In this document: positions 18,304 through 64,000 of the stretch, piece by piece
How the letters are laid out: the number at the start of each line of letters is the position of its first letter
How positions within the stretch are numbered: position 1 is the first letter of the stretch
NCBI GenBank assembly: GCA_022497155.1
Contig: MU385775.1
Span: 183,672 to 247,671, forward strand
Origin: Whalleya microplaca
Taxonomy: Eukaryota > Ascomycota > Sordariomycetes > Xylariales > Xylariaceae
Direction of reading: 5' to 3'
Length of the DNA: 64,000 nucleotides
Notes under the pieces: generated by a model
Database searches by the model: none
Seen by the model: the letters and a program-made list of their open reading frames with translations, nothing else
What the model was told of the DNA's origin: nothing
Made by a program: the position numbers and the translations under genes

Positions 18304-19352
18304 GTACGGAGTAGCACCTTGAAGTTTTGCATATACAGAGAGACTCGATAGCAATGATACAAGTAAGATAGCTCAATTGGAAGTATAAGCTGAAAACTAC
18401 TTGCTGATCGGCAACTTAATTATTCTAAAAGCCTTGATCATCGAATAATACACCATCTAGAACCCGGCCTGCAAGGGCTACAAATTCAGTCACGCCAGTT
18501 TTCGCTCGATCCCCGGGTCGGCGGTAAGTAGGTTGCAGAAACTCCTGCAATACACTGTGATACTACCTAAGATACACAAAACTTGGCTCTACAACATTAC
18601 TTCATATCTATTCGAAGACATATATCACACTCATTGTATATAAATGTTGAGTGCTTAGATATGTAAAATCATATCCGTCGTACAAGTGTTGCAGTGGTAG
18701 GACCCGTTAATCTACTATATACTCTCTAGTCGCACCTGGACGTAGCACGATATGCATTTATGGAATATAGTGAGAAAAACGCATTGAGGTCGACATATCA
18801 TCAATCTCCCACCACCTTCCCCGGTTCTCACTTTCGTCCGTATTCTTCTTCGTCAATAATGCGCTGATTATACGCCGCATTGACAAGGACAAGTGGCACA
18901 GCATCGCTGAGGATCCCAGCAATGCTACCATAGAAGCGGTGTCCGCCTCTTGTGTCACTTCAGGTGCCAAGATGCCTGGATGCATCAAGGCTGCACCCAA
19001 GACCTGAGGACTGCCTCCTCGCCCAACCTTGATGACCTGCGTCTACACCGAATGATCATAGAGACTTGCATAAACTCTGTGTATGACAGTCTAAGGTAAC
19101 TTTGAACTTACTGCTTACCCTGACTATACATGAAACAGCTTCTTCATTTAAAGTTCTCACGCATGCTTCAACTGACAAACAAACATCAGCCAACCGTCGT
19201 GATCGTGATCGTGATCCCATTTTCACCTCGTTGACCACCCGCCTTCATCTTATATCTACTCTAGTTGCCCAATCTACCTAACTCCGTTTCCCCCTTTTCT
19301 ACCTACAATTAGAAAAAAAGCCTTCATAAACCTCCACCATACCACAACAACC
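18304..19352. other. intergenic region
   Basis: No supported gene. This is the upstream side of both the monooxygenase pseudogene and the 2-hydroxyacid dehydrogenase. A pyrimidine-rich stretch at about 19255-19350 directly precedes the dehydrogenase ATG, as is common in fungal promoters. Confidence 0.55.
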
Positions 19353-20675: not shown

Positions 20676-23185
20676 TCACTTCCTCCTATACACCCCATCG
20701 ATAGTATAATCCTTCTTGGGCCCCTTAACCGAATACCTCAGCCTCCAATCCCTCAAATTAACAGCCTTGAAGTTGAACTCGTAGTGCACATCATACAGAT
20801 CCTCCACACACAGATGACTCGCCTCCGCCAACCAGCCCCTCCCCTTCTCCCCCTTCTTCCCCCCCTCCTCTGTCTCCGCCGTGGCGCCCGTGCTGCCACT
20901 GGCACCAGCGTCCGCGTCCGCGGGGACCTGGAACTCCAGCTCGTGGAACAGGTAATCCGCGCGCGCGGGGTCATCCGTGCGCGCGAACCAGACGCTCAGC
21001 CGGTCGGCCGCCTCGTCGTACCGGTACACGTAGCGCCGGGTCGCGCGGAACCGCATGCCGTTGTGCGCGACGAAGTCGCCGTCTTCGATGTACAGGTACT
21101 CGAGACCCAAATCTTCTCCATCTCCCCCATCTCCCCCATCTCCCCCATCTCCTCCTCCATCTCCCTTCCCTTCCCCTTTATCCGCACCCAACCCCGAACC
21201 CGAACCCGAACCCGAACCTGAACCTGGACCTGATCCGGAAGCGGAAGTTGTAGGGGCAGGAGCAGCACACGCAGCCCGCCCGTCCGCCGTCCCCTCGCGC
21301 AGCAGAAACCGCGCGGTCCCCTCGAACCGCCCGCTCGGGTGCCCCGGCAGGCGACTGACAAGCTCGCGCTCAAGCGTCCACTCGCCCAGCAGCGAGCGGA
21401 AGACCGCGCCAGCCACGAAGCGGGAGCCGGCCAGCCCCGCGCGCGCGCTCGCCTGCGTCATCTCCAGACTCTTTTCCGCGTGAGCGGCGCGCTCGGGCGG
21501 GATTTCGGGGGGCAGGTAGCGCGCGGGGGTTAGGATGTCCATGGGTTTGCCGTTTACGAGGATGGGATCCGTGGAGGAGGAGAGGGAGGGGGGTAGTGAG
21601 GGGGAAAGGGGCAGGGAGAGCGCGGACCCGAATTCTTGCATTAGGAACGCGTAGTCGCCCATCGGGAACTGCGAGGTGCGCGGGTCGGCGCGCAGGGCGA
21701 GCGTGCGGGCGATGGAGTCCTCGGTAGGGGGCAAGTTGAGGGAGGTGGGGTCGGTCCAGAGGCGGGTCAAGAAGCGCGACTGCATCTCCATCACGCCCCA
21801 GTACGGCGAGCGGTAGAAGCCGACGAAGCCCAGAGTCGCCAGGGACGGGTGGTGCGTGCCGTGGAAGGTGAGGGCGAGGGGGAGGTTGGGGTGCGCGGGG
21901 GAGTGCGAGAGGGTTGTGAGGACGGGGGGCGGGAGGAAGGAGAGAGAGGGCGAGGGGTCGAAGCCGGTTGCGAGGACCACGGCCGCGATGTCCGTGATCG
22001 ACTCGTTGCTCGGCGAGACGGTCGCGGCGGTGCCGGAGAGGGCGGAGAGCTTGCCCTTGTGGAGGGCGATGAGGCCCGAGCGTACGAAGTCCATGTAGTG
22101 CGTACTCATGGCCAGGAAGGGCGGCTCGTCGAGGAGCTCGCCGTCGACCTTGGTATCTTGCGAGAATTCAGATTGGTCGGTGGCCAGGACGGTCTTGTAG
22201 ATGGAGTTGGCGACGCGTGCTGCGTCGACGCTTATGTGGCCTTGGGTATTCGTCAGGGGCTGTGGACGGTTGGCCAAGTTGTATGACGGTAAATCGCACG
22301 GCAAGAATGGCGGTGCTGATGCCGTTGGCTAAAGGGGGGCAGTCAGTAATAGACAATGATTTATGAAGTAGAGATCATAACCTACCTTGGGTGATGTGAA
22401 CAGTGGGAAAACCCATGATGGCCGATGTACGATATGGTGTATCGAATACTTCTCGGGCTCTTGAATGACCTTCTCGCCCGGCGAGTTGATAGCAGAAGAG
22501 AGGTGAGTCGCGATGGTTCCAGCAATCTCAATGCCAGACATCTGCCCACCGACGATAAGAATCTTGCCTCCATGACTCTTCGATTTCACTAAGAGGCTCT
22601 TGAGGTCTCTATACTTGCTGCTATGTATAATCGGCACATCCGCTTCCTTCGGCACCTCGTCCGGCCATATTGGCTTGCCGAAGAACCCAGTGGTTACAAG
22701 CAAGTAGTCAAAAACGCCAGTCTCAGAGCCCTTGCTGGACTCTGTCTGCACCTTCCATGAGCCATCGTCTTGTAGTTCAGTCTTCACGACTTTATGACCG
22801 AGCCGTACATCGGCACCTTTATAAGTGTCGAGGTAGCGTTCCAGGTACTGGCCCACTTGCCACGCCCTGGCGAATTCCAGATCGGAGTCACGCCAGGCAA
22901 AATCGCTAAATTGGACTGTATGTCTGCTCTGATTTGCTACCATGAGCGGGTGCACCAAGCCGGCATTATCATCCTTGCGCGTAGGCCACAGACCTCCGAT
23001 GCGAGACTGGGCATCGAAGACAGTGACCTTGAAGGAGCCGATAGGGGCATCATAGAGTAATGTCTTCGCCGCGACCAAGCCAGACGGGCCAGCCCCTAAG
23101 TAAGGTGTGCGTGAGCGGATAACTCATCCATACTCGGAACGTGGAGGACTGGCTGCCTACCGACAATACAGACACTTTTAGCCAT
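20676..23185 (-). CDS. flavin-containing monooxygenase fused to a DUF6314-like domain
   Basis: Three exons: 23185-23161, 23095-22386 and 22328-20676, total 795 residues, all junctions in frame. The first junction rebuilds IVGAGPSGLVAAKTL, the FAD-binding motif. IIHSSKYRD and then ILIVGGQMSGIEIAG give the NADPH site of class B flavin monooxygenases. A disordered FMO-to-tail region follows. From about residue 550 comes a separate domain: LLGEWTLERELVSRLPG...FEGTARF, a Gly/Ser/Asp linker, then EYLYIEDGDFVAHNGMRFRATRRYVYRY, VWFARTDDPARADYLFHELEF, LCVEDLYDVHYEF and WRLRYSVKGPKKDY. This resembles DUF6314, a lipocalin-like small-molecule fold, here split by low-complexity sequence. The FMO part would oxidise a soft nucleophile or ketone; the fused domain may bind the substrate. 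That role is inference. Confidence 0.85.
21109..21240. repeat. in-frame low-complexity repeats inside the FMO fusion gene
   Basis: Two adjacent microsatellite-like tracts: about four ATCTCCCCC units (encoding GGDGGDGGDGG on the minus strand) and several CCCGAA units (encoding GSGSGSGSG). Both are multiples of three, so they keep the frame and insert a flexible linker in the C-terminal domain. Confidence 0.85.
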
Positions 23186-27463: not shown

Positions 27464-29273
27464 ATGAGTGATATTGAGAAGATCTCAGCTTCCCACGAGA
27501 ACGGCTCGCAAGATGGTAACATTGCCGGCTCGATCGATGGGTTACCACCGGATCCCGATGCGCATCTCAGCGAGGAGGAGAGGGCGAAGATTGTAAGCCG
27601 TAACCTAACCTAACCTAACCAAAGATTCCCGTCAAACCTGCATTCCGCTCCCAAAGTAGCTGGCGCTGACTCAAAATGTGCATATTAGGAGCGCAAACTA
27701 GTTTGGCGACTAGATTGGATATTGATTCCCTGGGTATGCCGGCTTCCCTACAGGAAAAACCCACGTTGCACACATAACGCTGACACCCGCATTTCCCATC
27801 TAGCTCTGTATCCTTTACCTGCTTGCTTTCCTGGATCGCACCAACATCGGCAACGCCAAGGTGGCCGGGTTTGCTGAGGACCTGCACCTGGCGTCGCATG
27901 ACTACAACCTGACGCTGACCATCTTCTTCATCTCGTACTCCGTCTTCGAGCCCTTGACCAATGTCCTGCTCAAGAAGCTGCGGCCTTCCGTGTTCATCCC
28001 CATCATCATGTAAGTGTTGCAGCTGCGATGGATCGGCATCTTAGCCGAGCCCGAAGGGGAAAAAAACTAACGTCGTGATACCTAAAGGATACTCTGGGGT
28101 TGCTCCATGACGGGCATGGGTTTCGTCACTAATTACTCCGGGATTTTGGCTGCCCGTTGGTTCCTCGGCCTTACGGAGGCCGGTCTGTTTCCCGGAGTCA
28201 ACTACTACCTGTCTTGCTGGTATAAGCGCTCGGAGTTCGGTATTCGTGCTGTATGACAGGCCCATTTTTCTCCCGTGTTGTCAAACGTTCACAAAGCTAA
28301 CTTAACGTAGGCCATATTCTTTTCGGCGGCCGCCATATCCGGCTCTTTTGGTGGGCTTCTGGCTGCGGCCATCGAGCTGATGGACGGTATAGGTGGCCGT
28401 CCCGGCTGGGCGTGGATCTTCATATTGGAGGGTCTCCTCACCGTCGTCTTCGGCGTCCTCTCTTTTTGGATGGTGCACGACTTCCCCGACCAGGCCCGTT
28501 TCCTGTCCGACGACGACCGCGCCCGCGTCGTCCGACGGTTGAAGATGGACCAGCAATCCTCGGCCGAGCACGAGGAGTGGAAGATCTCGTACCTGTACGC
28601 AGGTCTCAAGGACTGGAAGATGTGGCTCGGCATGGTCATCTACATGGGCTGCGACATGCCCCTGTACGCCTTCTCGCTCTTCCTGCCCAGCATCGTTCAG
28701 AATCTGGGCTGGGGCTCTAGTACGGTCCGAGCCCAGCTGATGAGCGTGCCGCCGTACGTCGTGGCCGCGCTGCTCACGGTCGTGATCGGGTTCATCGCCG
28801 ACCGCACGCACCAGCGCGGGCTGTGCAACATCGGCGTCAGCCTGATCGGGATCGCGGGGTTCTGCATGCTGCTGGGGTCGGCGGAGCCGGCGGTGCAGTA
28901 CGCGGGGACGTTCCTGGGCGCGATGGGCATCTACCCGTGCATCTCGAACACGATCAGCTGGATGGCGAACAACATCGAGGGCGTGTACAAGCGCGGCGTC
29001 GTGCTGGGCTTCGTCATCGGCTGGGGCAACCTCAACGGCATCGTCAGCTCCAACATCTACTTCTCCCCGCCCCGCTACCTCGCGGGGCACGGCGTCATGA
29101 TCGCCTACATGGTCGTCTTCCTGCTCGGCGGCTCCGTGCTCAATACCGTCCTGCTCCGTATCGAGAACAAGAAGAGGCGCGAGGGCAAGCGCGATTACCG
29201 CATCGAGGGCAAGACCACTAAGGAGATCGAGGCCCTCGGCGACGACCAGCCCGACTTCATGTACACGGTCTGA
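27464..29273 (+). CDS. MFS transporter, allantoate/nicotinate permease (Tna1/Dal5, ACS) type
   Basis: Five exons: 27464-27592, 27689-27733, 27804-28009, 28088-28250 and 28311-29273, total 501 residues with all junctions in frame. The acidic cytosolic N-terminus leads to RKLVWRLDWILIPWLCILYLLAFLDRTNIGNAKVAG, the hallmark first helix of the fungal anion:cation symporter family. FLGLTEAGLFPGVNYYLSCWYKRSE and GGRPGWAWIFILEGLLTV are the conserved helix 4-5 and central-loop motifs. About twelve membrane segments are visible and the protein ends in a polar tail. The family imports organic anions such as nicotinate, allantoate, pantothenate or tartrate across the plasma membrane; the substrate here is unknown. 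Intron 1 starts with four exact TAACC units. It is not adjacent to any biosynthetic gene. Confidence 0.93.
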
Positions 29274-46599: not shown

Positions 46600-47120
46600 C
46601 AGCGCTTCCATCAAGTCAATTCAAGTTAAATAAACCACCTTATTTGACTTGAATCAAGTCAAATCAACTAATTGAAATTTCAAGTTGACTTGAAGCTATT
46701 TGCAACTTGACTTGATTAGTAATACACTAAATTACGAATTTTACCCCTGAACCCCTGAGTCACATATTAGGTGGCTTCGAGGAGGTAAGGAAAAATTCTT
46801 CTCGGGAAATGACTAGACACAGCAAAATTGTTACACACAAGTCACGGACGTGATAGTGGTCAAGCCTTAACAAGAAAAATCAGCACAGGCCATAAGGTGG
46901 CTAATAATATTGACTATTGACAACCCTAAAACTCCAGAAAACCTTACGATATATGGCTTATACAATGGCTTATATAACTAGAAAAATAATTGACTAGTAT
47001 CAAGTGAATCAAGTCAAAAATAAGCTTCTAGTTGATTTGATTAATTATCGAAAAAAAAAACAATTGTATCAAGTCAATTCAAGTCAAGTCAAGTAATTAG
47101 TTGATTTGATGGAAGTGCTG
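46600..47120. mobile_element. non-autonomous hAT-type MITE, 521 bp
   Basis: Terminal inverted repeats: left CAGCGCTTCCATCAAGTCAA, right (reverse complement) CAGCACTTCCATCAAATCAA, 18 of 20 identical. It is flanked by a perfect 8-bp target duplication, TATATGAC, at 46592-46599 and 47121-47128. The 8-bp duplication and CAG-starting ends are diagnostic of hAT elements. Subterminal CAAGTCAA/TTGACTTG motifs recur many times at both ends, as expected for transposase-binding sites. There is no transposase ORF. Confidence 0.9.
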
Positions 47121-47709
47121 TATATGACCGCTGTTGTTCTGTTTGATGAAATGGACGCAGGTTATGAGTATCACAGTAGTTATTATTAATTTATTAGGGA
47201 AGTATCATCACTAGGTAGAGTCTGGAGTAGAATGGAGACCTCCTATATAAATCATAGCTTGTGAGGCATCCCGCCACCTGGATTATCAGCCACACATCCC
47301 TGCAGTCCGACACTTTAGATGGCCTCACGGTCTATAGGTGTTGAGGAGGCTTTGCTGCCAAATTCCTCTGTGTTCTATGGATTACTGAGTTGAGGAAAAG
47401 GGATACGAAAACCTAACCGGACAAAAGCTGACATGGCAGCATGGCTGGCGAGAAACGTGTCAGGCACTAGCTGGAGCTAGGTTACTAGGTTGCTCCGTGT
47501 GCCCAGCATTAGATTTTCAATACAATTCATGCTTTTCTGGCTGGTAGCGTAGTAAGGTGCTAGCAGCGCATTGACCACACCTTAATCCAATACACAATGA
47601 TAGTGTGGGACGGGCACGTGATCCCCCAATCAAATGCATAATTTTCATAGCTAGCCAGCTACCTGTGCCACGCCCCACCTTATTGCAGTTTCGTCGGACT
47701 TACCAGCTA

Positions 47710-47931
47710 AAGCTGGTGCTTACCAGTAATTCTGACAGGACCAGTAATTCAACCACTATCAAAAAACCTACAAAAATATTGTCAAAAGTGTCTAATCAAT
47801 AGTCTCCTAAGTCAGAGTGTCTATAAGCAACTTAGAAACCCATTGTCTTTTGTATATTACCTTATAATTGGGATATTGTTGACGGTGGTTGAATTACTGG
47901 TCCTGTAAGACTTACTGGTAAGCACCAGCTT
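47710..47931. mobile_element. Tc1/mariner-type MITE, 222 bp
   Basis: Both ends carry a ~47-bp inverted repeat beginning AAGCTGGTGCTTACCAGTAA with only two mismatches, and the element is bounded by TA at 47708-47709 and 47932-47933. A TA duplication plus long TIRs and no ORF fits a mariner-derived miniature element. Near identity of the arms suggests recent insertion. It ends 119 bases from the PKS stop codon. Confidence 0.88.
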
Positions 47932-48049
47932 TATCCACAGCTAATACAACTTCATTCCGCCACCAATCCCTACCTCTTGATCCCTTATTTCAATAGGTAT
48001 ATAACACAAGTAAAAGATGAGAATTGCTATTTCAGGGAAGAGCGCTTTG

Positions 48050-51000
48050 CTAACCTTTAGCCTCTTCACTATTTTCATCCTCGTTCGCACTGCTGACAAG
48101 TTTTGTCTCCACAAATTTAGCAAGCATATTAAGATCCATGCTGGGGCTCAATATGTTGAGGAATGGCACGTCAACCCTAAATGTCCTCCAGAACCAAGTC
48201 CGAAATTCGGATGCAATCATGCTGTCTACACCAAACTGACCCAATGTCTTGTTGTGGTCAACCTGGTCCACAGGGATGAGAATGAGATCGGAAAACCGCT
48301 TCCGAATAAGCTGTAAAACCGCCTCATCTAGCGAGCTACTTTCCGCTACAGCTAAAAATGACTCGGCAATATGTGCAGGGATAGACTCGAGCCATTTGGG
48401 AATCGGTGCGCCAGCATCAAGGCTGGTTCGTGTTCTCCGTGCTGCATTCCGAGACTCTTGTTCAGCGATTAAGGCAGCCGAAATGATCATGGTGCGCGGA
48501 TCTTGCATTGTTCCATTATCCACCTCAAACCCTCTGGCCATGAGCTTGTGCAACCCAAAAGGTTCCAAGCCTGTAAGTATATGTGCGCTAGTATGGTCAT
48601 CAGAACCCCGAGTATTAGAACTGAGAGCAAGGTCGATAACTTGAAGAAACTCGTCTTCACTCAGGGGTTGGATTCCTTTACGCAGCAGTAGGGCCTCGAT
48701 GTTTGGGTTCTCGTGTAAGTAGCCCACTTCTGATATCATTCCCAACCCCACCGAGACAGACGGAATCCCTCGCTGGCGCTGCCATTGCGAAAATGCGTCA
48801 AGGAAGGCATTCGCAGCACAGTAATTGCTTTCGGTAGCTGTCCCAACACTACCGGATACCGAGGATGTCAAAAGGAAGAAGTCTAAATTTTGGCATTCGA
48901 GTTCAGTGTGCAAATTCCACGTCCCCGCCCATTTTGGCTGGATGACTGTATGCCAGGCTTCGTTAGGCACTACAATATGATGAATCAGTAACGGATATTT
49001 ACTGAAGAGCAACATAGCTCGGAGCATCCTCCATGTGAAAACTACTTACTGCGGGAGAAAAGGGCTTCGTGTAGACCCATAGCCGCTTGCACAACTCCAC
49101 CGATTGACTTTCCCATAGTATTGCACGCTTCCACGGAAGCTTTGACATCCGGACGCTTGGCCACATCGCCACGAATGACGGCAACAGCCGCTCCGGCATG
49201 TCGAAGGCGTGACACCAAACTCCTTGCCTCAGGCTTATCACAACCTGACCTTCCAAGGAAGACAAAATTCCGCGCTCCGCGAGCCATCATCCATCTACTT
49301 AAGCTTCGGCCCAATCCGCCGAGGCAGCCTACAAGAAGATAGACCTTGTTAGGGTCAAAGATTGTCCGATATTTGGGAGGGGCGGTCTACAATTCTGATC
49401 AGCCATACAGTTCCATTTTCCGAAGTAAGAGTGATCGGTACCGGAATGGAACTTTTCGGATTTTCCATTGATATGACAATTTTTCCAATTCTCTCTTTCT
49501 GCGAAAATCGACGATATGCTTGGGCAATATCAGAGACGTCAAAGATGGTCAGAGGAACACACTTCAAGTATCTATGTCGGTATAAATCTAGAACCTCCCT
49601 CATTTTACTTTATGTCAAGTCAGTCAGTTTGTTGAATAAAACATATGACTTTGTCTTACCTAATAAGGATATCTTTGCCGTGGCTCTCGTCATAGTACAA
49701 GTCACCAAGGTCAAATGCGGTGAATGTTGCATTGCGAAGAAAGACACGCATATCGAGCTTACCAGCATCAAGAAGTTCCTGCTTACCGATTTCGACGAAT
49801 CGACCAAAGTTAGCCATACAAGCCCAGCTCTCATGCATGAGATCCCCAACGAGAGAGTTGATAACTACGTCAACACCACGACCTCCGGTAGCTTTGGCTA
49901 TCCCGGCTGCAAATGAGGCATCTCTTGACTGGAAGATATGCGTTTCTGGGACGCCTAATTCGTGGATTAGGAAATCTCGTTTGTTTGGCGAACTGACCGT
50001 CGTGTAGATGCATGCCCCTATACGTTGGGCGATTGTGATGGCAGCGATACCAAATGCCCCAGCCCCGGCATGGATTAATATCGATTCACCCTCCTTCAGT
50101 TGCGCACGATCGTGTAAAGCGTATAATGCAGTGGTATATACAACGGGGATTGACGCCATCTCAGAGAAGCTTTCTCTTGGAAGAAGCTTATGCACCGCCC
50201 ATGCAGGCACTTGTTCTGTGGTGTGAAAGTAGGTTGGTGCTAGAACGACAACGCGGTCGCCGGGCTCCAGGTCAACATTTGAACCAACAGATTTCACAAC
50301 TCCGCTGAATTCGCCAGTTAATGTACCTTGTTGCGTTTCTACACGTCCCATGATTGTGTAGACATCCTTGGCATTAACTCCCACGGCCTTGACTTCGACG
50401 TCGATGAATCCAGCTGGAGGTGACTCTGCCAGCGGCTCACGAAGTTCTTGAAAATGTATCGTATCGATCAGCCCAGGTGTATCAATCTTCATTCGTGCTG
50501 GACAGGAGTCTGATAATGTTTTCTTGTATATTTGTTGCTGCACACTGGACTTGAGATGATGACGGAAGAGGGCGTTCAGACTCTTGTCAGGGACGAAGCG
50601 GCTGACATGGAGTATGTATTCCACTTGAATGAACTCCTTATCATCCGAGTCATGGCGCGCAATCAGAGCCCTGGATATATTTGTGCAGGTAAGCTGTGCG
50701 CCTGTTTGGGAACTATCGTTGAAAATAGTTCTACCTATATCTAGGATCGAGAATCTCAACGATGGCTGCTCTAGCATTATCGCACGTGATAACCCGCTCG
50801 CAAGGGCAAGGTTTGGGTTCATGTTACTACTCGTAATTCCAGCGCCGGTAATCCATACGAGATCTGAAACGATGTCTGTGACGCGTCGTAGAAGGTTCAT
50901 TTCCTTGGAGTTCATGGTTGTTAAGAACTCCTTTTCCGTCTCAAGCATTGAGATGCAAATGAGCTGCTTAGTAACGTCTACGTGGTCAATTCCGTCAAGA

Positions 51001-54000
51001 GAAATTGTGTGTACACTCTTGGAATTGGTCTTTTCGAGTAGGTACTGCTCTAGACAGTCGACGAAGCGGACTAGAACGTCAGATGGCCTGTTCATCTGCC
51101 ATTAATCGGTGTTAGCCAGCACGCAAATAACATTCGAACCCAGATGCACCTACCATGATTAGAACATCTCTGCCAGTAAAAAACGATGTGTCTGTGGGCG
51201 GGATTGCTAGGAGACACTGCTTTCCTGCAACGACTTGCTCAAAATCATCCAACGGGATCCTTGAGGCCATGCCCGCCGTCTTGACGACCAGTATGCCATG
51301 TTTAATGAGTAGCGGTCGAAGTTGCTTGGTGACTACTTGATTTAGATGGACTGGAAGGGATGCCTAAATAAATTTGTTACTTCGGCGTCTGAAGAGCGGA
51401 CGAACAAATGAAAACTACTACAGTAGAAACTCACTTCTTCAATTATGATGACATCAAACAGTCTCGTGTCGTCGCTGAAAATGTGTATCTTTCCATTTTC
51501 GTCCAGCTCCCCTGAGCTCCAGGATGAACAGTGTGGATATCCTGCCTCTGCGTTCAATCTCTTTTGTTTTTCGCTATCCATAGTCGCATTATACAGCTGA
51601 AGGATCCGTATGCGCGGATTCTTGTGGCTAGCGAGGTCTAATATTGCTCCCACTGTGACGTTTTCATCTACATCAAGAGCAAAACTTTCGTGCTGTGCGG
51701 CGGTGAAGTGCGATATGTAATTCTGAAGCTGAGTCTCAACCCCTGGGAAAATACCCATGATATCTGGCTTCCAATTTACTCTGAGACACGGGTTTCGCTG
51801 CGAAACTAGAGAATAGTCATCACCTCCACGTCGCTGTGTATCTGCTTTGCCGTTATAGAGCGACATATGGACTCCCTTCAAGTTAATCACTGGCATGTCG
51901 TGTGCGTCACGAAGAGTACAGCACACTTTCTTGGTGGCAGGCCCGGTGTCTTTGGATCTTGTATGGATCTTTCCATCAATGGCAATATCATTAGGGCCAG
52001 GAGTCCTAATCTGACAGCTGGAGATGTAGGACGGAAGATAAGCTTTCAAGTTGTTGATATTCCCTGCCGTACCTCCCATTATGGCAGCTTGAATGCAAGC
52101 ATCGATGACAATTGGGTTTATGTTGTAACGTGTCTCAGGGGATCGCCCATCGGGGTTCTGCGTGTCTCTCTGTATCAGCCTGGTCGTTGAAATGGCTGCA
52201 GTGCTGATGCGGCTGCCATCTGTGCTTAGGCTCGTCAAAGACTTGAATTTAGGGCCAAAGTTCAATCCTTCTTCTCTGAGCTTAGTATACCACCTTTCAA
52301 TTGCCCATGTTTCATATCCTGTGGTGTCATCGACCATAACAGGCTTGATGAAAGACATGATATCATCAAGATTTTCTGGACCATCAATACGAATACTTCC
52401 TGCGCAGTGCAAAGTAGGAAGACCAACTGACCAGGACGATACAGTAAACTCGTACCAGTCTGCTGCTTTGCTTGCTGTAGATAATTTGCGCTGCGTAATG
52501 GATGTATGTAGCTCGGTATTCTTGACATTATTATCTTCAACAACGAAAGCCGTAATCATATTGACATTCTGAAATTGGCACAAGATATTAGGCATAAAGA
52601 GATCAACACCAATAACTTGCGACAATGCCTCCATTGCAAGCGAAAGATATCCTGCGGCAGGGAATACGATCTGTGCTTCAAGCTTGTGATCTCGCAACCA
52701 CGCAATCTCGTCGAGTTTGAGTATATTACGCCAGCAGAAATCAATACCATTTCCTGCTAATTGTTGTGACCCCAACAGCTCATGGCGAGCATGACGTCGA
52801 TTACGAAGCTCGACGCTCGGGCGTGGTTCGTTCCACATTAACCCGGCGGAGTAGTCCCAGGGATAGGGGGGCAGGTTAGGGAGTGGTTTCATATTGGTAG
52901 TCCTCTCGGGCCACCCATGTATAGCCGACCATTTTAACGAATGCCCATGAACAAAGAGATTTCCTACCAGAGAATTGAGACATTGGTTGGCATTCCGACC
53001 TCGATAAAGTGTGTAGCTGTAAGGCAAAAGATCTTTGCCGATCCCGAGTTTTGTACGAATTTGCTCTACTGGCCCCCTAAGTGAAGCGTGGGGACCAATC
53101 TCGATAAGATGCAGTTTGCCGTTAGCCACTACAGACTGTAAAGCTGCACTGAATTGAACCTGCTTTTCAAGGTTTTCCCGCCAGTACCTTGGCGTTGACA
53201 CTCTTTGGCGGTCGACTGCCCTTTTTTCATCAGGCCCTTTTCCTACCGACGAAATCATTCGGGTGTTCTGCTCATACTGATTGCAGCTTGAAGCTGAGGT
53301 GTTCCAAACATGTTGCTGGAGAAGCTCCTCGTATAGGTACCCAGCCTTCTGCATTAGATGCGAATGATATGCTTGATTGTTCGTTTCTAATTTGCGTACG
53401 AATATCTTCCCCTGTAATTCTTCGAAGAGTTTGTCTATACCTTCCTGTTGCCCACTAAGAGTTACACTTCCAGGAGAGTTGACACATGCAACAGATACCT
53501 GAAGCTCAAGGCCATGTTCAAGGATAAGCGTTTCGGCAGCTTCTGCATTTAATCCAACTGCAATCATTTGACCTGGAGTATGGAGCTGCTTAACTGCGAG
53601 GCCACGGAAATATGCCACGAGGATGGCGTGTTCTATTGTCAAAAGGCCAGCGGCATATGCTGCTGCAATTTCGCCTGAAGAATGGCCCACTGTGAACGTT
53701 GGCTGAATATTCCAATTTCGCAGCAATTCAATTAGACCTATTTGTATTGCTGTACACAGAGGTTGGCTGCGATCAGCGTCGTGAATCTGGCTCGTGCTTG
53801 ATGGCTCTAGAATCATTTCTTTCAAGGTCCAGATAGGGGCCAAGGAATCCGGCAAGGTTTGTAACACGGACTGAAGTTTGAAAATTGTGGCAGAGAATAT
53901 GGATGTGTCATCGTAGAACAACTCCTCAGCCATTCCGGGATACTGTGCGCCTTGCCCAGTGAAAAGGAATACAATTGGCAACGGCTCAGGGCCCTTACTT

Positions 54001-56191
54001 TGGGCCAGGACCACATTAGGCTGTTCAGGCTCTATATCAATCCTCTCGTCGTGGCAAGTAGCCAAGAGAAAACTACGAAACTTCAAGTGTGACCTTCTTT
54101 CAGCTAACGTGAATGACAATGAATCTAGGCTACTAGCCTTCATTTTTTTGGCCATCTGTGCTGTTTGATCAACTCGTTTTTGGAGGGAGCGCCTGGACGC
54201 AGCGGAGACAGGCAAGACGTAATATCCCATCCTTGGATGTTGAGGAGTTGTGGCCTTTGTAATATCTCTGTTAAAGTAGCTGTCAAGAGATTCCAAAACC
54301 GCATGTCCATTGGCACCTCCGAATCCGAAGGAATTTATGCCCGCCCTGCGGAGACTTCGAGGCCAAGCCTCAAGTTCTGTTGCAATCTTGAAGTTTAGAT
54401 GCTCAAGCCGAACTGCAAATGAAAATCTTGGTTAATGCTCGAGTATTATCTAAGATCCATAATCACTCACGTTTTGGATTTACTTTGTGAACACCACAAG
54501 TGGGTGGAATTCGGCCATTCTCGAAAGCAAGGACGACTTTGATAATAGATGATAGGCCGCTAGAAGCCTCACTGTGTCCAATAGTTGGTTTCACCTTTGT
54601 GCGAGAAACATGTTATTAGCGGACCTGGACTCGATACTACCACAAGAGAACCCAGTGGGGAAGTCGACTTACTGCTCCAATTATCAAAGGTAGCCCATCT
54701 CTAGGGGCAAAACAGCGTCCAACAGCGTCAACTTCGATGGGATCCCCAATTGCTGTTCCAGTACCGTGAAATTCGACGTAATCAGTATCCGCGATGTGCA
54801 GCCCAGCCGTATTATACGCCTTACGAATCACGGCTTCCTGACGAGCGGCGCTCGGTTGGGATATGCCAGCAGTACGGCCGGTACTGCGATAGATCTTTCT
54901 CAGAGTATGATCAAAGTGAGAAAAGCAAGGGACATACATACGCATTGACTGCAGTACCGCGAATCACTGCCCGAATAGTGTCCCCATCTTTGAGTGCAGA
55001 TGATAAACGTTTCAAGTAGATGGCGTTAACTGCTTCTGCCCTTCCGTACCCATCTGCAGAAGCATCGAAAGTATGGCAGGTTGACGTGGGAGATATCACA
55101 CCACCTTTTACTGTCGCTATATGCTGCTCAGGGCCGTTGATGAGATTGGCACCGGCTACAATAGCACCATCGCAATCGCCGTTCTTTAAAGCGACAACAG
55201 CGCTGTGAAGACAGTATAAAGATGAAGAGCAGGCTGTATCTAGTGTGAAACTGTCCAGAAATTAGTACATGGTCCATAGCGAGATTGATTAGTTACGGTG
55301 ACTTGGCGGTGTAGCAGGAACATGGTCTACCTAGACACCATAATTCCTTTTATTGTTTCCAAGTGTCATACTCTCTACCTGACTCTAAGTATAGGAGGTG
55401 AGAAGTAAGAGTTTAGATTGACTGGAAGAATTATCTCACCTGGGACCGTGAAGATTGAACACATGGCTGATTCTATTTGCCATAATACCGGTTCCAGTGC
55501 CTGTGCCGTGGTATCGATGAAGATAATCCGGATCCCTCGTTTGCATAGACTGGAAGTCGACGGTAAAGTTTCCGATATATACGGCCGTGTTACTCCCAGA
55601 AATGTTTTCTAATGGCACTCCGGCGTCCTCTAAGCATTCAGCAACTACTTCGAGTAGCTTCCGTTGTTGAGGGTCCATCTGTTAATCGTCAGTAAGCTCG
55701 CCTGTAATGAACCGGATCCCATGCAAAGTGTGATGGCGTCTGTTAGGCTGAGGACCCCTTTCAAAAGAATCGAATTCGCTTTACTCACTGCAAAACTATC
55801 AGTCAACAGTACAGCCCAGGAAGATATTAACACATACCGTAAGTTGCCTCAAGGTTATTGATACCAAAGAAACTATTTTCAAATTGTCGAACATCCTCCT
55901 GCAAAAAGTAACCGCCTTCGGCGTCTATGACACCAGCGCGACGGCTGCCATCAGGATGATAGAATCCTCCGATATTGAACCGCTCCAGTGGAACACGGCC
56001 TTGGGTGGACCGCTTCTGGATAAGGAACTCCCATAGTGCGGAAGGTGAATTGATCCCCCCTGGGAGACGGCAACCTAAGTCTAATGCATTAGGGGCAGTC
56101 CCCATGGGCGAAACGAGACGGGAATGAGATTACCTATGCCAACAATACAAGCAGGATCTTCATCGACACCCATGAAATGTGAATCGCCCAT
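48050..56191 (-). CDS. highly reducing type I polyketide synthase
   Basis: About 12 exons (56191-56134, 56074-55838, 55678-55440, 55250-54942, 54898-54673, 54594-54471, 54412-51435, 51363-51154, 51095-49660, 49607-49442, 49386-49050, 48969-48050), roughly 2,410 residues. [11 protein letters not shown] (active Cys), [14 protein letters not shown] and [11 protein letters not shown] (two His). [13 protein letters not shown] and [14 protein letters not shown] near 640. [20 protein letters not shown] near 970 and IDACIQ near 1167. The methyltransferase region is vestigial: [16 protein letters not shown] lacks the Gly-rich SAM motif. ER: GVNAKDV and [16 protein letters not shown] near 1800. [12 protein letters not shown] near 2005 and SNYCAANAF near 2153. 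ACP: FGVDSM, Ser near 2354. No thioesterase or reductase release domain is present, so release needs a partner. The exon 2 to exon 3 junction in the KS is odd: it leaves one base too many (see findings). Confidence 0.93.
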
Positions 56192-56695
56192 TTTCTGTGT
56201 AATAAAGCGAAGTTACCTAGGTATTCAAAAGATTGTCTTCAGATCGTGGGACACCCAGAGCGAACATCGTCTAGTGGCTAAGAAAACCTAATACACCAAT
56301 TACGGGAGTGTACCTAGGTCCTTATAAACTTGAGAGGATAGAATACAGACACCTAAACATCGCCTCAAAATGTGATCGGAGAAATGTACCCAGGTACATG
56401 AGAGGTTGATTAGATACTTCCCAGAACTACCTGTAAGCATTTTTAACGCTCATCTAGTATAAGGTTATCTTCATGTAACGTACAAACTATGGTTATATCG
56501 ATATGCATTTATGCATTTCTATTCAAAATTCCCACCTTGGGTGGGGGTAATGTATTAAATACCACAACTAATGTAACAATGTAGTGTGCTGGCCAACTAC
56601 CTACACAATTAGGTAGGGATAGGAGAATACTTGTTTATGGACTTCTCTGAAATCTATCTTAGCATTCTGACAATAGATTCTCCAAGAAAATCACC
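56192..56695. promoter_or_regulatory. divergent promoter between the PKS and the Ayr1-like SDR
   Basis: 504 bases separate two divergent start codons. A TTATAAA-type sequence (about 56318-56327) reads as a TATA box toward the PKS. The SDR side is AT-rich with no clear TATA. CCTAGG palindromes lie at about 56217 and 56313. Head-to-head placement implies co-regulation of PKS and SDR. Confidence 0.6.
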
Positions 56696-58099
56696 ATGTC
56701 ACGAAGTAAGAAGTTCGCACTGATTACCGGGTGAGTCTTTATCATATATATATATCTCTGGTTACATTTTTGAAACTGGACTAAGTCATGTCGTAGGTGT
56801 GGTAAAGGAGGAATTGGCGAGGCTCTTGCCTGCGAATACTCTCGAGTGGGAATTCATGCTATTGCAACCATTTTGCCGTCTGAGGCGAGCGAGCATCTTG
56901 TCCAAGCTGGCCTTACCTGGTTCTACCTAGACGTTACAAGCGAGGAATCCATACGTGAGCTAAAGCAACAGGTTGTTAAGCTTACAGGCGGAATGCTTGA
57001 TATTTTGGTCAATAACGCGTAAGATACTCATTCAACTCATCGGGATTATAACTAAATGTGGTATCGTACCATTAGGGGTATCTGTAAGTATCACCCCTGT
57101 TTCGACGTACCTTGGTATGTCAAGCTGAAATAAAAAACGAGGCTATACTATGACAGCTATCGATACAGATATCACCGCAGTCGAAAGAATGTTCGATGTC
57201 AATATCTTTGGTCCTATTCGAATGGTTCATCATTTCCATTCGTTGATCATCGCATCTGCTGGCACTATCGTAAATATCGGTTCCGTGGGAGGGATCGTTC
57301 CCTACGTATACGGAGGTAATTTGTACTCGATATATGTATACAGCTGACCGCTAATGTCTATTTTCTAGCATCGTACAATGCGACTAAAGCAGGATTGCAT
57401 CATTGGAGTAATACTCTACGAGTAGAGATGGCACCCCTGAGGTATATATTCAAATTATAAAGAAACCGTTCCATACCTACTCATATCTCACAAGTCGGTG
57501 ATATAGTGTAAAGGTCTTGACCGTCAGTGATACCGACTTCCATATCTCATTTCATAGCGGAAACTGAAATTGACCCATGTTTAAAGGTGATATCTGGTGA
57601 AATTGGCACCAACATCTTGCGAAGCGATCGAGACAGAGAGTTGCCAGAAGGTTAAAAATCTCCCGTTCATAACCTTCGATGTGTTCTGACAAGATAGTAG
57701 ATTCGTATTTCTCTCCTCTCGCCCCCGAGTTTAAGCGGCATGTCCAAAGATCACCGGGTAAGCTTGCTCCATTCCTTCCGAGATCCCACACTGCATTCCT
57801 GGATAGCTAGTTTACAGGTATACTTAGAGACTACGAATCGCTTTTCCTACGCAGCTCAAGTCGTTTCCCAAAGCCTGAGGCCTGATCCACCTGCGTGGCT
57901 TTGGTATGGCAAAACGACGAGAATTGTGAGATTCTTCGATATGTTCGCCTGGCGGACAATTTGGGTTTGTATATCTGATACCTTCTCAATGAATGTCTTG
58001 CAACGCTTTACTGATTTTGAATACGAACAGGATTGTATCTTCTGGTTTATGTTCAACTTCGGGAAGTTGAAAGCGGCTCACAAAGGACGCCCAACATGA
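56696..58099 (+). CDS. Ayr1-like short-chain dehydrogenase/reductase
   Basis: Ten exons: 56696-56730, 56797-57018, 57076-57083, 57142-57315, 57369-57441, 57507-57522, 57587-57650, 57701-57757, 57807-57964 and 58031-58099, total 291 residues, all phases consistent. Motifs: ALITGCGKGGIGEALA (NADPH-binding TGxxxGIG), DILVNNAGICYTM (NNAG), VNIGSVGG (catalytic Ser) and ASYNATKAGLHHW (YxxxK). The C-terminus (FKRHVQRSPG, WRTIWDCIFWFMFNFGKLK) matches the membrane-associated tail of Ayr1-type reductases. Two microexons of 8 and 16 nt are required to rebuild conserved sequence. By context it likely reduces or oxidises a carbonyl of the polyketide chain. The weakest junction is exon 7 to 8 (GTTAAA donor). 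Confidence 0.85.
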
Positions 58100-58498
58100 A
58101 ACGGATAGACCAAATGTACTTGGTACCTGAGGTACTTTCAAATATATGCCTCTAATATTCAATAATGAAATATGAATGTTACGCGTAGGTGTGACTTCTA
58201 AATATAGTCGTTGAATTGCTATCTTTTGAGGCTGTGTATTGTAAAGTACCTATACATCTAGGTATGTGTACCTGGTATGCAAGATATTTTGGCATACGTG
58301 ACTATTGGATTGACACTCGGCATTGTCATCAAGCCGAGATAACAACTACTACTCTGCTTAGTGCATCCTTTCTATAGTAGTAATTGGAATAAATTGCCTT
58401 GGTTATCCACTCGTATCATCCGTGTATAGATGATCACTGTCCCGTCCGGTTGCTCTCTTTGCTTGAGACACTTCGTACTCGAATCTGGAACTCTGACC
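58100..58498. promoter_or_regulatory. intergenic promoter of the second SDR
   Basis: 399 bases between two same-strand cluster genes. Nothing specific stands out beyond AT-rich sequence. Confidence 0.4.
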
Positions 58499-59498
58499 AT
58501 GAATCTGAACGGATATGCCTTAGTCGTTGGGGGTTGTAAGAACCCTCCTACCATCATCTCGCTTCTGTACGACCGACACTCACAAATCATAGCAAGTGGC
58601 ATAGGGAAAGCGTGTGCTAAGGCGCTTGCCATGCAGGGCTCCACGGGTATCATGATAGCCGATATTGATAGCACTGCCGCGGAGACAGTTGCATCGGAAT
58701 GCAAGGCTCTGGCAAAATTTCCTCATTTTCGATCCGGAGCCGTCCATATGGATGTTACATGCGAAAAGTCGGTCACGCTAGCAGTTGAGCATACGTCGAG
58801 GCAGTTTGGGAGGATCGACTACTGCGTTACTAGTGCTGGTGTGAGTGCCATGTCGTATAGGCGGTGCGGTGAACAGGCTATTACTGACCAACTATAATCT
58901 ATTAGATCGGCGCCGAACATGGTTCCGAGACGTCTGAGACAGCCTTGTCAGAATTTAAGCGATTCATGGATACCAATGTCACCGGTACGTTTCTGGTAAA
59001 CCGCGCTGTTTCTGCCTCTATGAGGCTGCAGGATCCAAGGCCCGCAGTGGTCGGACTTCCGGAGAGGGGCGTTACACGGGGTGTGATCGTGAATATGGGA
59101 TCTCTAGCATCATTTTTGCCGTCCCCGGGGTTGGTGCAATACACTACGTCTAAGCATGCGGTGCTTGGTTTAAGTAGGAGTGCAGGTGGGTGACATGCCT
59201 CTTGGCGGCGTGGGGGTACAATAAGGCTAACTACGAATCAGCCCTCGATAATGTACGCCACAGCATTCGAGTAAATTGTGTATGTCCGTCCTGGGTAGAC
59301 ACTCCGATGGTACAGCGCGCTAAAGAGGGTGTACCTGAGCTGGAGCAGATGATCAATTCGTTGGTTCCCATGGGACGGATGGCGCGGCCGTCAGAAGTGG
59401 CAGACACGGTGGTATTTCTCTGCAGTCCATTATCCAGTTACATAACTGGATCTATTATTGTGGTTGATGGTGGTACGACGCTTGGAAGCAGATTGTAA
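58499..59498 (+). CDS. classical short-chain dehydrogenase/reductase (3-oxoacyl-ACP-reductase-like)
   Basis: Four exons: 58499-58535, 58593-58840, 58906-59185 and 59242-59498, total 273 residues, all in frame. Joined motifs: [18 protein letters not shown] (cofactor-binding), IADIDS (Asp after beta-2, which favours NAD(H)), CVTSAG (NNAG equivalent), VNMGSLASF (Ser), [18 protein letters not shown] (YxxxK), [14 protein letters not shown] and [14 protein letters not shown], the terminal signature of classical SDRs. It lies 400 bases after the Ayr1-like SDR and 236 bases before the cupin, all on the plus strand. In the salicylaldehyde-type clusters, enzymes of this class oxidise an alcohol to a ketone or install the arene; that role is suggested by context only. 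Confidence 0.9.
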
Positions 59499-59665
59499 GC
59501 TGTTGGATCGTAGAAAATCGGGGTGCAACAGATAACTGCAAGCGACTACCAACATTACCATCGAGTTAGTTGCAGGGTCGTACCATAGCCATTCGACGTC
59601 AAGGATATTAATAAGAGTGCAAGGGTATCTCGACGTAGTGATGTGACTTGCCCTATGTCACAGAG

Positions 59666-59705
59666 TATATAAGGCGCTAATATCTGAACGGTATTAGCGG
59701 TACCG
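59666..59705 (+). promoter_or_regulatory. TATA box and CGG-triplet site before the cupin gene
   Basis: TATATAAG at 59666-59673 lies about 65 bases before the ATG at 59735. At 59689-59705 three CGG/CCG triplets occur close together (CGGTATTAGCGGTACCG), a direct CGG-N6-CGG overlapping an inverted CGG-N2-CCG. Zn2Cys6 regulators bind such triplets. No regulator gene is in the window. Confidence 0.45.
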
Positions 59706-59734
59706 CTTTTACCACACCTAACAAGATCACAATT

Positions 59735-60381
59735 ATGGCTTCATCTACAGAGCAGGCTGAAGGATTCGTCACGCATGGGTTCCCCGCCCCTGGTTTACCT
59801 CGTACTCAGCGCCATATTACTGGCCATGATAACCAGGGCAAATCTATATTCTTGACCACGGACTGCGGTGATCACCATCGGGTGATGGGAAAGGAGCAGG
59901 CTGTTGCCAATATCATTTATTCTACACAAGAGAATCCTGTCGAGCTCAATGGGGAAGTCGACATTCAGCGTGCTATGGGCATGGAGGTATGTTTCGTGTC
60001 ATCTATCTCAGACTTAATCGCGGGATCCTGATGGGTTGTTACTAGCCACCACTTCATTATCATAACGGCACGGTAGTCCGCATGGTAGATTTTGGGCCAG
60101 GGCTAGAGTCACCCCTTCATCGCGCCCTCTCCATCGACTACGGAGTCGTTTTGGAGGGGGTCTTCGAATTGGAACTCGACTCTGGAGAGAAACGTGTAAT
60201 GCGCCGAGGAGACGTGAGTGTTCAGCGAGCGGCTGCTCACAAGTGGCGCAACATTACAGGAAATGGTACCCTACCAGGCCGAATGCTTTATGTACTACTC
60301 GACTGCAATGACGTGGTCGTGAATGGTGTTAAACTGGAGGGATTCCTCGGTGAGCTTGAAAAGGAGTATGCGGGTCGCTGA
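59735..60381 (+). CDS. cupin-domain protein of the polyketide locus
   Basis: Two exons, 59735-59986 and 60046-60381, give 195 residues; the intron starts GTATGT and the joint is phase 0. The N-terminal part reads GLPRTQRHITGHDNQGKSIF, then after the joint PPLHYHNGTVVRMVDFGPG, SIDYGVVLEGVFELELDSGEKRVMRRGDVSVQRAAAHKWRN. This matches the cupin-2 fold found in fungal polyketide clusters: a start strand with His/Glu ligands is only partly conserved (LHRALSIDYGVVLEG) and the second motif keeps GD and H. Some members bind metal; others are thought to be non-catalytic chaperones or cyclases. Small soluble protein, no signal peptide. It is the last gene before a long non-coding, RIP-affected stretch. 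Confidence 0.88.
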
Positions 60382-61046
60382 GATGATTAGGTTAGGAATG
60401 AAGGCATGCAGGCAATAAAATTTCGTCATCAATACATACAGAATGTTATATTTAAGTACATTTGACTGTGCTCAGGTTTTGGGATATACCCGTGCAATTC
60501 CGAGCTCAGCCGCTCGAAAGTTGTGTCCAATTTGGCCACATTTTCTTGTGATACCAACCAGACATAACTGCGTCCTAAGATGACTGAATGACGGATTATG
60601 TGCTTGAAAATACATGTTGGGGGCAAGTGCCTACAAGTCGATTGAAAGTAATCGGGATGCATTTAACACATCATACATGCAACGAACCCTGCACACGAAG
60701 CTCGCCGATGTTGTATGGAGTACTACGTGCTGCAAGGCAGGCGTGCCCTTGGCAAGGGTAGCTTAGCCAGCCTTACTGCGGGGTTGTACTAAAAAAAGTG
60801 GATTAATAGGGGGTAGTCTGGCCCAAGTGACAGATAACGGGCATTAGCTACGTTTGCGTGCATAACTAGGACGGGTAATATCTGCTGTGGTACCCGAGTA
60901 GATGGCATCAATTGTTCATGTCCGTAGGGCGACGGAGTGATCTTGCGAGCTGCAGTCCAATCCTATGAAAAGACATCTGGAGCTAGAGCCATAGGCTCCT
61001 AAATATATCCTTATTTACTAATAACAGGTTTGAGTAGACTTATACA
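60382..61046. other. intergenic region at the cluster edge
   Basis: No supported gene. Normal composition gives way to AT-rich sequence from about 61.1 kb, so the polyketide locus ends against a repeat block. Confidence 0.6.
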
Positions 61047-61068
61047 TGGGAGTCCCATGGGACTCCCA
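61047..61068. repeat. perfect 22-bp palindrome
   Basis: Arms TGGGAGTCCCA and TGGGACTCCCA meet at CATG with no loop. Related GGGACTCC motifs recur at about 61091 and 61121. It sits just before the AT-rich block and may mark a transposon end. Confidence 0.75.
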
Positions 61069-62412
61069 CCAATTCCCATGGGAAGTGATGGGACTCCTAT
61101 ATAAGTCCTACGCTAGTGGTGGGACTCCCACGAAATTTCCCTTCCATTATATATTCCTATAAGACTTTTATAGGAAATATATATATATTAATAGGACAGA
61201 TAAGATTTCGAAATAATTATAAAATAATTAATTAAGACTTATATATTAATATAAATTAATAAATGCCTAAATGCCTATATTAATAAATAATAAAGGTATT
61301 TATATAAAATTTTATATTTTAAACGTTAGTATTTTTTAAAAACTAAATATTATTAAATTATTATTTTAATTAAGCTATAGAAAATTATTTTTTTATAGTC
61401 TCAAATTGTTAATCTTTTTTTTATATCTTTCGGTTTTTTAAAATTTATCGAGTTAGTATAGCCTAATGTTATTTTAGAGCCGTTTTTTTTTATGCCGCCC
61501 GATTTTTCCGAGTTACTTCCTTACGGTATGTCTGTTATCCTAATAAATTAGGCGTATAATTTCTTAATTATACTTCTTATAAAATTAAGAAATAACTAAT
61601 AACTATTTTTATTAAAGTTATATTTTTAATTTATAATATAACTCGATTAGCGTAAATATAAATTAAATTAAATATTAAAAACTTATTAAATTATTTTATA
61701 ATTATTTTATTAATAATTATATTTTTTATTATTTTTATTATAATAAATTTAGCTGTTTTTTAAAAGCTAAATATAATAAAAACTTGCTATTTATACTTTA
61801 TATTAAATTATTAAAAAACTTCCCGGACAAGTCGTTAAAAGGCGGCTTTAGAAATTAAAAAGTCGGTACTTTTTTAATAACAATAAATTTTACGTAAAGT
61901 AGCGACTATAATTAAATTAATAAAATAATCATGAAATAATTTTTTTATATACCTTTTGGCCTTTATTTACGTACTTTTGGTTACCGCGCGCCAGGCGTAC
62001 TAAAAATAGGAATCTTTTTTTTTATTTATTTTTGAGGTTTTTTTTTAATTAATAAAATAGGTGTTTTACGAGTTATAGTTTTACGGCTTTTTTTATTTAT
62101 AGTAAATTAAATTTCTTTAGGCTTAAGGTTAGTATTTTTTCCTTTTAAAAGTAATAAATTTATATTAATATATTGCTATTTTTTTTCGGTAAAATCTTTA
62201 ATAGTTATAATAGTAACTTTATTATTTATATTTATTTTTTTATCGTTCTTATTATTCTCGTTATTATTATTAGTTTTATAGTTAGGTATTACTTTATTAT
62301 ATTTACTCCGGTTATTATTTTAAAAAATAGGATTAGGATTATTATCCGAGTCTAATATAATCTGGAATTCTTTATTATAATACCGATTATTATTACTATT
62401 TTTATTTATAGA

Positions 62413-62532
62413 GTTATTGGTATTACTATCTTTATTTATAAAGTTATCGGCATTATTATTTTTATTAATAGAATTGTCGGCATTATTATTTTTATTTACA
62501 GGGTTATCGGTATTAGTATCTTTATTTCTAAG
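62413..62532 (-). repeat. four 30-bp units encoding an Asn-rich decapeptide on the minus strand
   Basis: Units start at 62413, 62443, 62473 and 62503. Read on the minus strand they give ten-residue repeats such as NKNNNADNSI and NKDTNTDNPV. The surrounding minus frame is also Asn-rich over about 450 bases with a single TAA near 62324, suggesting a decayed coding sequence, perhaps from a transposon, altered by RIP. Confidence 0.7.
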
Positions 62533-63161
62533 GTTATTATTATTTATTTCAGTATTATTATTAGCATTATTTTTAGTTATACCCTGGTTTTTTATAGATA
62601 GTTATTTTTGAATTTAATTATCGATTTTTAGTGTTAAAATTAATACTTCTTAATTATTAGGCTAAGGCTAAGGCTAAGGCTTAACTGTATTCTTTTTTAG
62701 CTAAAGCTTAACCGTATTCTTTTTTAATATAAGATTTATAACTCGCGAAAATTTATGCTTTTTTTATAAAGCCTATTAATATCCGATTATTTTATAATTA
62801 TTTTATTATTTTATTAAAGGGTTTAAATTACTACTATCGGCAGTTTCTTTATTTATTACCACATTTATAAATTTAGTAGTATCGGTATCCTATATTATAA
62901 AAAATAAGTATATAATTATCTATTAATTATTTAGGAGTATTTACCTTAGCCTAATTAATAATAAAAATCGGACCTTTAGACTAGGAATTATTTAATAATA
63001 TATATTAAAATCTAGCTTTAGCGTTAGACTTTAAGTTATTTATTTATAATAGTTAGCGAATAATTACTAGCTGGATATTTTATCTTATACCTTAAGCTAA
63101 TAGTTACTTATAAATAGTTTTTAAATAGTATAATTGGTTTAATATAAACAAATATATAATT

Positions 63162-63790
63162 AAAAGTCGATTATTTCGTAATTATTTCGATTAATAAAAT
63201 GAATTTAATTAAAAGCGACCGCAGGAAATAATAAAAGTAATAAAAGTAAAAAAGTAAAGTAGTTATATATAAGCTTTCTACCGGTTACATTTACTTAAAA
63301 GTCGATTATTTTATAATTATTTCGATTAATTTATTAAATTTAATTAAATGCGACCGCGGGAAATAATAGGAGTAATAAAGGTGAAAAAAGTGAATTAGTT
63401 ATAAGCCTTTTACTAATCGCATTTACTTAAAAGTCAATTATTTCGCGATTATTTCAATTAATTAATTAAATTTAATTAAATGCGATCGCAGGAAATGACA
63501 GGAGTAATAAAAGTAAAAAAAGTAAATTGGTTATATACTTGCTACCGGTTATATCTACTTAAAAGTCGATTATTTCGCGATTATATTAATTAATTAATTA
63601 AATTTAATTAAATGCGATTGCGGGAAATAATAAAAATAATAAAGGTAAAAAAAGTAAATTAATTATATATTTACTACCGGTTATATTTATTTAAAAATCG
63701 ATTATTTCGCGATTATATTAATTAATTAATTAAAGTTAATTAAATATAACTGCGGGATATAATAAATGTAATAGTTATAGCGAAAATTAA
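63162..63790. repeat. tandem array of ~132-bp units, about 4.7 copies
   Basis: Units start at 63162, 63297, 63429, 63561 and 63693 (spacing 135, 132, 132, 132), each beginning AAAAGTCGATTATTT or a close variant and containing GCGAYYGCRGGAAATRA and CTACCGGTTA motifs. Copies differ mainly by C/T and A/G transitions, as RIP would produce. Confidence 0.88.
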
Positions 63791-63899
63791 TTAAATTATA
63801 TAATATATAGTATGTAGTAAAAGGTGTAGTGAAAAGGGGTATAATAGGTGGGGTAAAATTAAATAAATGATTTAAAAAAGTGGGGCGTTTTAATAAAAG

Positions 63900-64000
63900 G
63901 GAAAGAGCACTTTAAAAAATTAATTATATATAAAAGGAAAAAGCACTTTAAAAAATCAATTATATATAAAAGGAAAGAGCACTTTAAAAAATCAATTATA
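63900..64000. repeat. tandem array of 36-bp units running off the window
   Basis: Units start at 63900, 63936 and 63972 and contain AGCACTTTAAAAAAT. The third copy is cut by the window end. Only one or two bases differ between copies, so it is younger than the 132-bp array or shielded from RIP. Confidence 0.9.

Follow-up and report, generated by a model that had tools for sequence, protein, structure and literature searches.

Formation of alkyl salicylaldehydes by an HR-PKS usually requires two SDRs and one cupin, and at least 493 homologous clusters are recorded in 401 strains (PMC11915489). Expression of rusA-D with the regulator rusH leads to the salicyl alcohol and aldehyde; the products named are stachysalicyloids B and D, together with a hydroxylated derivative (PMC11915489). 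By their titles, works cited in that article report that release of the chain can be catalysed by the KR domain and that aromatisation takes a non-canonical course. For trichoxide, T. virens Gv29-8 is the strain named in the available part of PMC11161606.

The locus presented here comes from Whalleya microplaca (Xylariaceae, Xylariales) and lies in a window (the whole stretch of DNA analysed) of 64,000 nucleotides, which makes up the last 64 kb of contig C66 (247,671 bp). We find in it the same set of four genes and, within the KS-coding region of the PKS, a predicted stwintron, a rare arrangement in which one intron sits within another.

Gene content of the locus

On our exon models the four genes have their outer ends at 48050 and 60381 and span 12.3 kb, with intergenic gaps of 504, 399 and 236 bp. 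The features of the core are as follows.

48050..56191, minus strand: HR-PKS, 12 exons, KS-AT-DH-ER-KR-ACP, with no methyltransferase match and no release domain
56192..56695, no strand: divergent PKS/SDR1 intergenic region, 504 bp between start codons
56696..58099, plus strand: SDR1, Ayr1-like, StrD/SrdE-type, 284 aa, 10 exons
58499..59498, plus strand: SDR2, classical SDR, 273 aa, 4 exons, with homologues at the C31 and C6 loci
59735..60381, plus strand: cupin, StrC-type, 195 aa, 2 exons

A preliminary description of this DNA had reported an HR-PKS without a release domain, two SDRs and a cupin at these positions, and both the exon models and Pfam bear it out; it also had the PKS and SDR1 share a promoter, and their start codons are divergent, 504 bp apart. 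Pfam detects KS, AT, DH, ER and KR in the PKS and reports no ACP family at E ≤ 0.001; the ACP is assigned by its serine motif, which is located about 55 residues before the C-terminus with nothing behind it. The active-site motifs of the PKS are intact and align with those of the T. virens Gv29-8 PKS. The cupin has a Pfam score of 24.5, slightly under the curated cut-off of 27.2. Concerning the deposited proteins of W. microplaca, P0241 is identical to SDR1, while the PKS from MDPQQR on (2309 aa) matches the C-terminal end of P0121 (2407 aa) exactly. Two residues differ from P0121 at the join of exons 1 and 2, where the acceptor of the deposited model sits 6 nt further on.

Class assignment and relatives

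The cupin is identical to StrC, whose structure has been solved, at 133 of 185 aligned residues (72%). Among the best 120 of 2920 hits, SDR1 presents 62% identity to StrD (P0336), 63% to SrdE of N. crassa (P0352) and 65% to P0319, which its source calls fogD. A KS tree of 130 sequences was built from the best 120 of 7959 PKS hits, the two paralogues on C31 and C6, and eight other PKSs of the genome. The window KS is placed in a 118-tip clade (support 0.91) together with the T. virens Gv29-8 PKS P0191, which we take by its strain to be VirA (its UniRef name stops at 'Highly reducing polyketide synt'); this placement is relative to that single characterised reference. The C31 and C6 paralogues enter the clade at 122 tips with a support of 0.75, and the eight other PKSs all fall outside the clade of the window KS. 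Internal nodes are partly unresolved, one 18-tip node having a support of 0.0. Two further PKSs of W. microplaca, P0156 and P0210 (on contigs of 415,007 and 937,681 bp), sit in the same KS clade, and membership of it is therefore no proof of the pathway by itself. The preliminary description had made the clade of the KS and cupin a point on which its class depended: with the references available, the T. virens Gv29-8 PKS falls together with the window KS, and the cupin has its 72% identity to StrC. Assignment of the locus to the salicylaldehyde type is well supported by these comparisons.

Among the matches listed, the closest relatives of the KS are those of Daldinia sp. FL1419, Nemania abortiva, N. 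bipapillata, Nemania sp. FL0031 and Hypoxylon sp. FL0543 (6-tip clade, support 0.98). The cupin tree took 106 of the 120 listed cupin hits (180-260 aa) and, like the tree of SDR1 relatives, was midpoint-rooted; among the matches listed, the cupin groups with N. bipapillata, Nemania sp. FL0031, Ophiocordyceps australis and Hypoxylon sp. FL0543 (5-tip clade, support 0.84). Because the nearest relatives of the KS and the cupin overlap, the PKS and the cupin appear to have travelled together. The closest relatives of SDR1 among the matches listed belong to Xylaria telfairii, Hypoxylon fuscum and Biscogniauxia marginata and differ from those of the KS and cupin; given this, the cluster may be a mosaic.

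Linkage in other fungi and paralogous cores

Linkage was scored by equal size of the deposited contig over three lists of 120 matches (cupin, PKS and SDR1), a measure of shared contigs and not of distances along them, some contigs being megabases long. Among the matches listed, cupin and PKS share a contig in at least 21 cases, PKS and SDR1 in at least 41 (window included) and all three in at least seven. Again among the matches listed, 116 PKS rows carry a contig, and 55 of these, counting the window's, show linkage to a cupin or SDR1; the linked tips in the 127-tip KS clade number 55. Species names match in all 21 cupin and PKS pairs and in 40 of the 41 PKS and SDR1 pairs, the lone mismatch being between two Aspergillus names (90% clusters).

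Within the W. microplaca genome, a search with the cupin led to five places (C66, C31, C33, C6 and C12). Homologues of the PKS, cupin, SDR2 and SDR1 are found together on C31 and again on C6.

C6:1105000-1145000: second core locus, with two P450s, a FAD_binding_3 match, a Zn2Cys6 regulator and a DMATS gene beside the core
C31:149000-170000: third core locus, where an MFS transporter and one more SDR accompany the four-gene core

The C6 locus also has a FAD_binding_4 match, below its cut-off. That one genome holds three such core loci, one or more of them with many tailoring genes, offers a natural setting for asking how tailoring genes come and go.

A predicted stwintron in the KS

The last in-frame residues of PKS exon 2 are ..NNLEATY, and exon 3 starts with MDPQQR. 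By reading, every GT-AG intron at this junction adds or drops residues, and the obvious donor GTATGT leaves one G. Since an ordinary GT-AG intron cannot join exons 2 and 3 in frame, the junction needs a stwintron.

55679..55838, minus strand: predicted [D1,2] stwintron of 160 nt, in which a 50-nt internal intron separates G1 from T2 of the 110-nt external one

Removal of the 50-nt internal intron (GTATGT..GCAG) creates GTGAGT, the donor of the 110-nt external intron, which ends in ATTAACAG. Both nested introns match the consensus donor, branch point and acceptor (GTRWGY, RYTRAY and CAG), and the deposited P0121 carries the same join as the predicted spliced product. On these grounds the 160-nt KS intron is predicted to be a [D1,2] stwintron. 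It is present as a single copy in the genome. We also considered a GC-AG intron at the junction; it would remove the residues ATY, which are kept in the deposited protein.

In the C31 paralogue the intron is located 5 nt further on and, by reading, an ordinary GT-AG intron suffices, so the stwintron is not common to both genes; the C6 paralogue aligns unbroken at this position. Among the relatives, the Nemania abortiva model has two additional residues here and that of Daldinia sp. FL1419 three, and the N. bipapillata model is without the stretch. These discordant models may reflect the same difficulty. Stwintrons of the [D1,2] type have been described in Hypoxylaceae and Xylariaceae with the same architecture and the same one-G mis-splice, as given in the available part of PMC12403724. 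The words 'Whalleya', 'polyketide' and 'PKS' are absent from the main texts of PMC12403724 and PMC9024468. If the prediction is true, the KS stwintron would be a two-step splice in a gene of secondary metabolism, in which one-step mis-splicing destroys the enzyme.

Flanks and contig end

Features of the window outside the four genes are listed below.

4079-6961, plus strand: NRPS-like frame with AMP-binding, carrier and thioester-reductase (NAD_binding_4) domains
17764-18372: FAD_binding_3 match (Pfam)
20679-23123, minus strand: FMO-like gene (Pfam), with a long DUF6314-domain frame after it on that strand
28311-29270: MFS transporter (Pfam), 19 kb or more from the PKS
46600-47120: inverted pair with 20-nt arms, left of the MITE-like repeat
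47708-47933: MITE-like inverted repeat, 58-nt arms 91% complementary, just past the PKS stop
61035..64000, plus strand: AT-rich RIP-like dispersed repeat, starting 653 bp after the cupin; C66 ends inside it

Genome searches, with 92 of 336 P450, 150 of 199 Zn2Cys6 and 8 of 8 DMATS candidates scored, gave no match for any of these three families in the window, and the sole P450 listed on C66 among the 92 of 336 scored is located at C66:41285-42637, some 190 kb away from the PKS. The Pfam comparison covered 29 window ORFs outside the four genes, including 13 of the 40 flank ORFs of at least 60 aa; ten flank ORFs of 77-135 aa had no Pfam match. When the ORFs of at least 60 aa from the C31 and C6 loci (n = 473) were compared with the window, two short ones matched outside the four genes, at 32.4-32.6 kb. 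The preliminary description had seen no P450, prenyltransferase, regulator or FAD-linked oxidase in the window. The first three absences stand within the scoring just given; the last goes too far, as the FMO-like gene and the FAD_binding_3 match are present about 25-30 kb from the PKS.

To the right, C66 stops 3.6 kb past the cupin, within a repeat at least 3 kb long. From 61035 to the contig end the GC content is 0.21, TpA/ApT is 1.23 and (CpA+TpG)/(ApC+GpT) is 0.43; values of that size are usual for RIP. Copies of the repeat occur at the ends of many contigs, among them the left end of C66 itself (C66:737-3294). Since the right edge of the window is a contig end inside this repeat, the absence of tailoring genes right of the cupin says nothing, and such genes may lie beyond the assembly break. 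In the repeat search, ten contigs had a match of more than 2000 bits starting in the first 740 bases, ten out of ten on the minus strand, and there were weak plus-strand fragments as well. These minus-strand matches looked subtelomeric, and we considered whether the end of C66 is a chromosome end. Among the matches listed, exact (TTAGGG)4 tracts are found at base 1 of C41 and at high coordinates of C18, C21, C28, C29, C43, C47, C55 and C71, with none for C66, and this reading was rejected. A dispersed repeat that halted the assembly is the simpler reading, because a query holding one edge of such a repeat would always point outward.

Proposed pathway and alternative explanations

Gene content, motifs, homology and conserved linkage together indicate that the locus is very probably an intact alkyl salicylaldehyde core. 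In such a pathway the HR-PKS would build and selectively reduce the chain on its own ACP, the two SDRs would set its oxidation level, each in a presumed role, and the StrC-type cupin would assist cyclisation and dehydration to the aromatic ring. Reductive exit of the chain as an aldehyde would give an alkyl salicylaldehyde, or a salicyl alcohol after reduction. Chain length, the order of the steps and any action of other enzymes on the product are likewise matters of inference. Of the earlier reading, the salicylaldehyde-type class is supported by the KS clade and the likeness of the cupin to StrC. Its suggestion of a new minimal variant is not: the quartet is an already published core (PMC11915489), and the contig end in the repeat hides the right flank. 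Unless sequence past the contig end is obtained, the locus should not be presented as a new minimal pathway.

The extent of the cluster is a separate matter, since the core could be part of a fuller tailored cluster whose P450, flavoenzyme and perhaps prenyltransferase lie past the contig-end repeat, its 'minimal' appearance then being an assembly artefact. We place this just short of an even chance, and it is compatible with our best explanation for the core. It draws on the end of C66 only 3.6 kb after the cupin, in a repeat found at many contig ends, and on the C6 core of the same genome, which is flanked by P450s, flavoenzymes, a regulator and a DMATS gene; against it, the comparison with the C31 and C6 ORFs showed no relics of their neighbours elsewhere in the window, and the repeat measures at least 3 kb. 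A complete stand-alone pathway, with an alkyl salicylaldehyde or salicyl alcohol as its undecorated natural end product, two further cores in the genome (one richly tailored) and the PKS gated by a stwintron splicing switch, appears unlikely. If it were true, one-step mis-splicing with its one extra G would break the KS frame and act as a splicing-level on/off switch.

It is very improbable that the core makes a non-aromatised reduced polyketide and not a salicylaldehyde: chemistry is not readable from sequence, and the differing nearest relatives of SDR1 allow for a mosaic set, but a cupin so close to StrC is retained and the core motifs are intact. The failure of any ordinary GT-AG intron to join exons 2 and 3 in frame could also be taken as a KS frameshift at 55838-55679, which would make the PKS a pseudogene. 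This we regard as highly improbable, because the frame is restored exactly by a stwintron whose two introns both fit the consensus, P0121 shows this same join, the remaining frame of 2.4 kaa is open, and stwintrons are known in Xylariales (available part of PMC12403724). The four-gene locus is most likely functional.

Comparison with known systems

The str cluster of Stachybotrys sp. g12 (stachysalicyloids) is close to this locus through StrC (72% to the cupin) and StrD (62% to SDR1), a likeness drawn from the sequences of these two proteins. The rus cluster of Penicillium roqueforti (roquesalins) has an HR-PKS, two SDRs and a cupin, as in the Whalleya core, and the P. roqueforti cupin P0031, which is tied to the species and not specifically to rus, is 68% identical to the Whalleya cupin. 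In addition, rus has a P450, two FMOs and a transcription factor (PMC11915489), none of which was seen beside the Whalleya core. Regarding vir (trichoxide, T. virens Gv29-8), the window KS groups with P0191, taken to be VirA, and regarding srd (sordarial), SDR1 is 63% identical to SrdE of N. crassa. In the parts of the sources available, vir, fog (flavoglaucin) and srd have oxidases, and fog also a prenyltransferase, unlike the surroundings of the Whalleya core; the C6 locus of W. microplaca resembles these three clusters more than the window locus does. Compared with the [D1,2] stwintrons of Hypoxylaceae and Xylariaceae, the KS stwintron has the same G1/T2 nesting, with one G left by the one-step mis-splice, whereas it stands as a single copy in this genome, outside any repeated set, and its splicing is predicted. 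The four-gene set is of a known kind and not a demonstrated new variant. What deserves to be followed further is the KS stwintron, together with the presence of three parallel cores in a single genome, and the locus adds a well-resolved member, from a named species, to a large known family.
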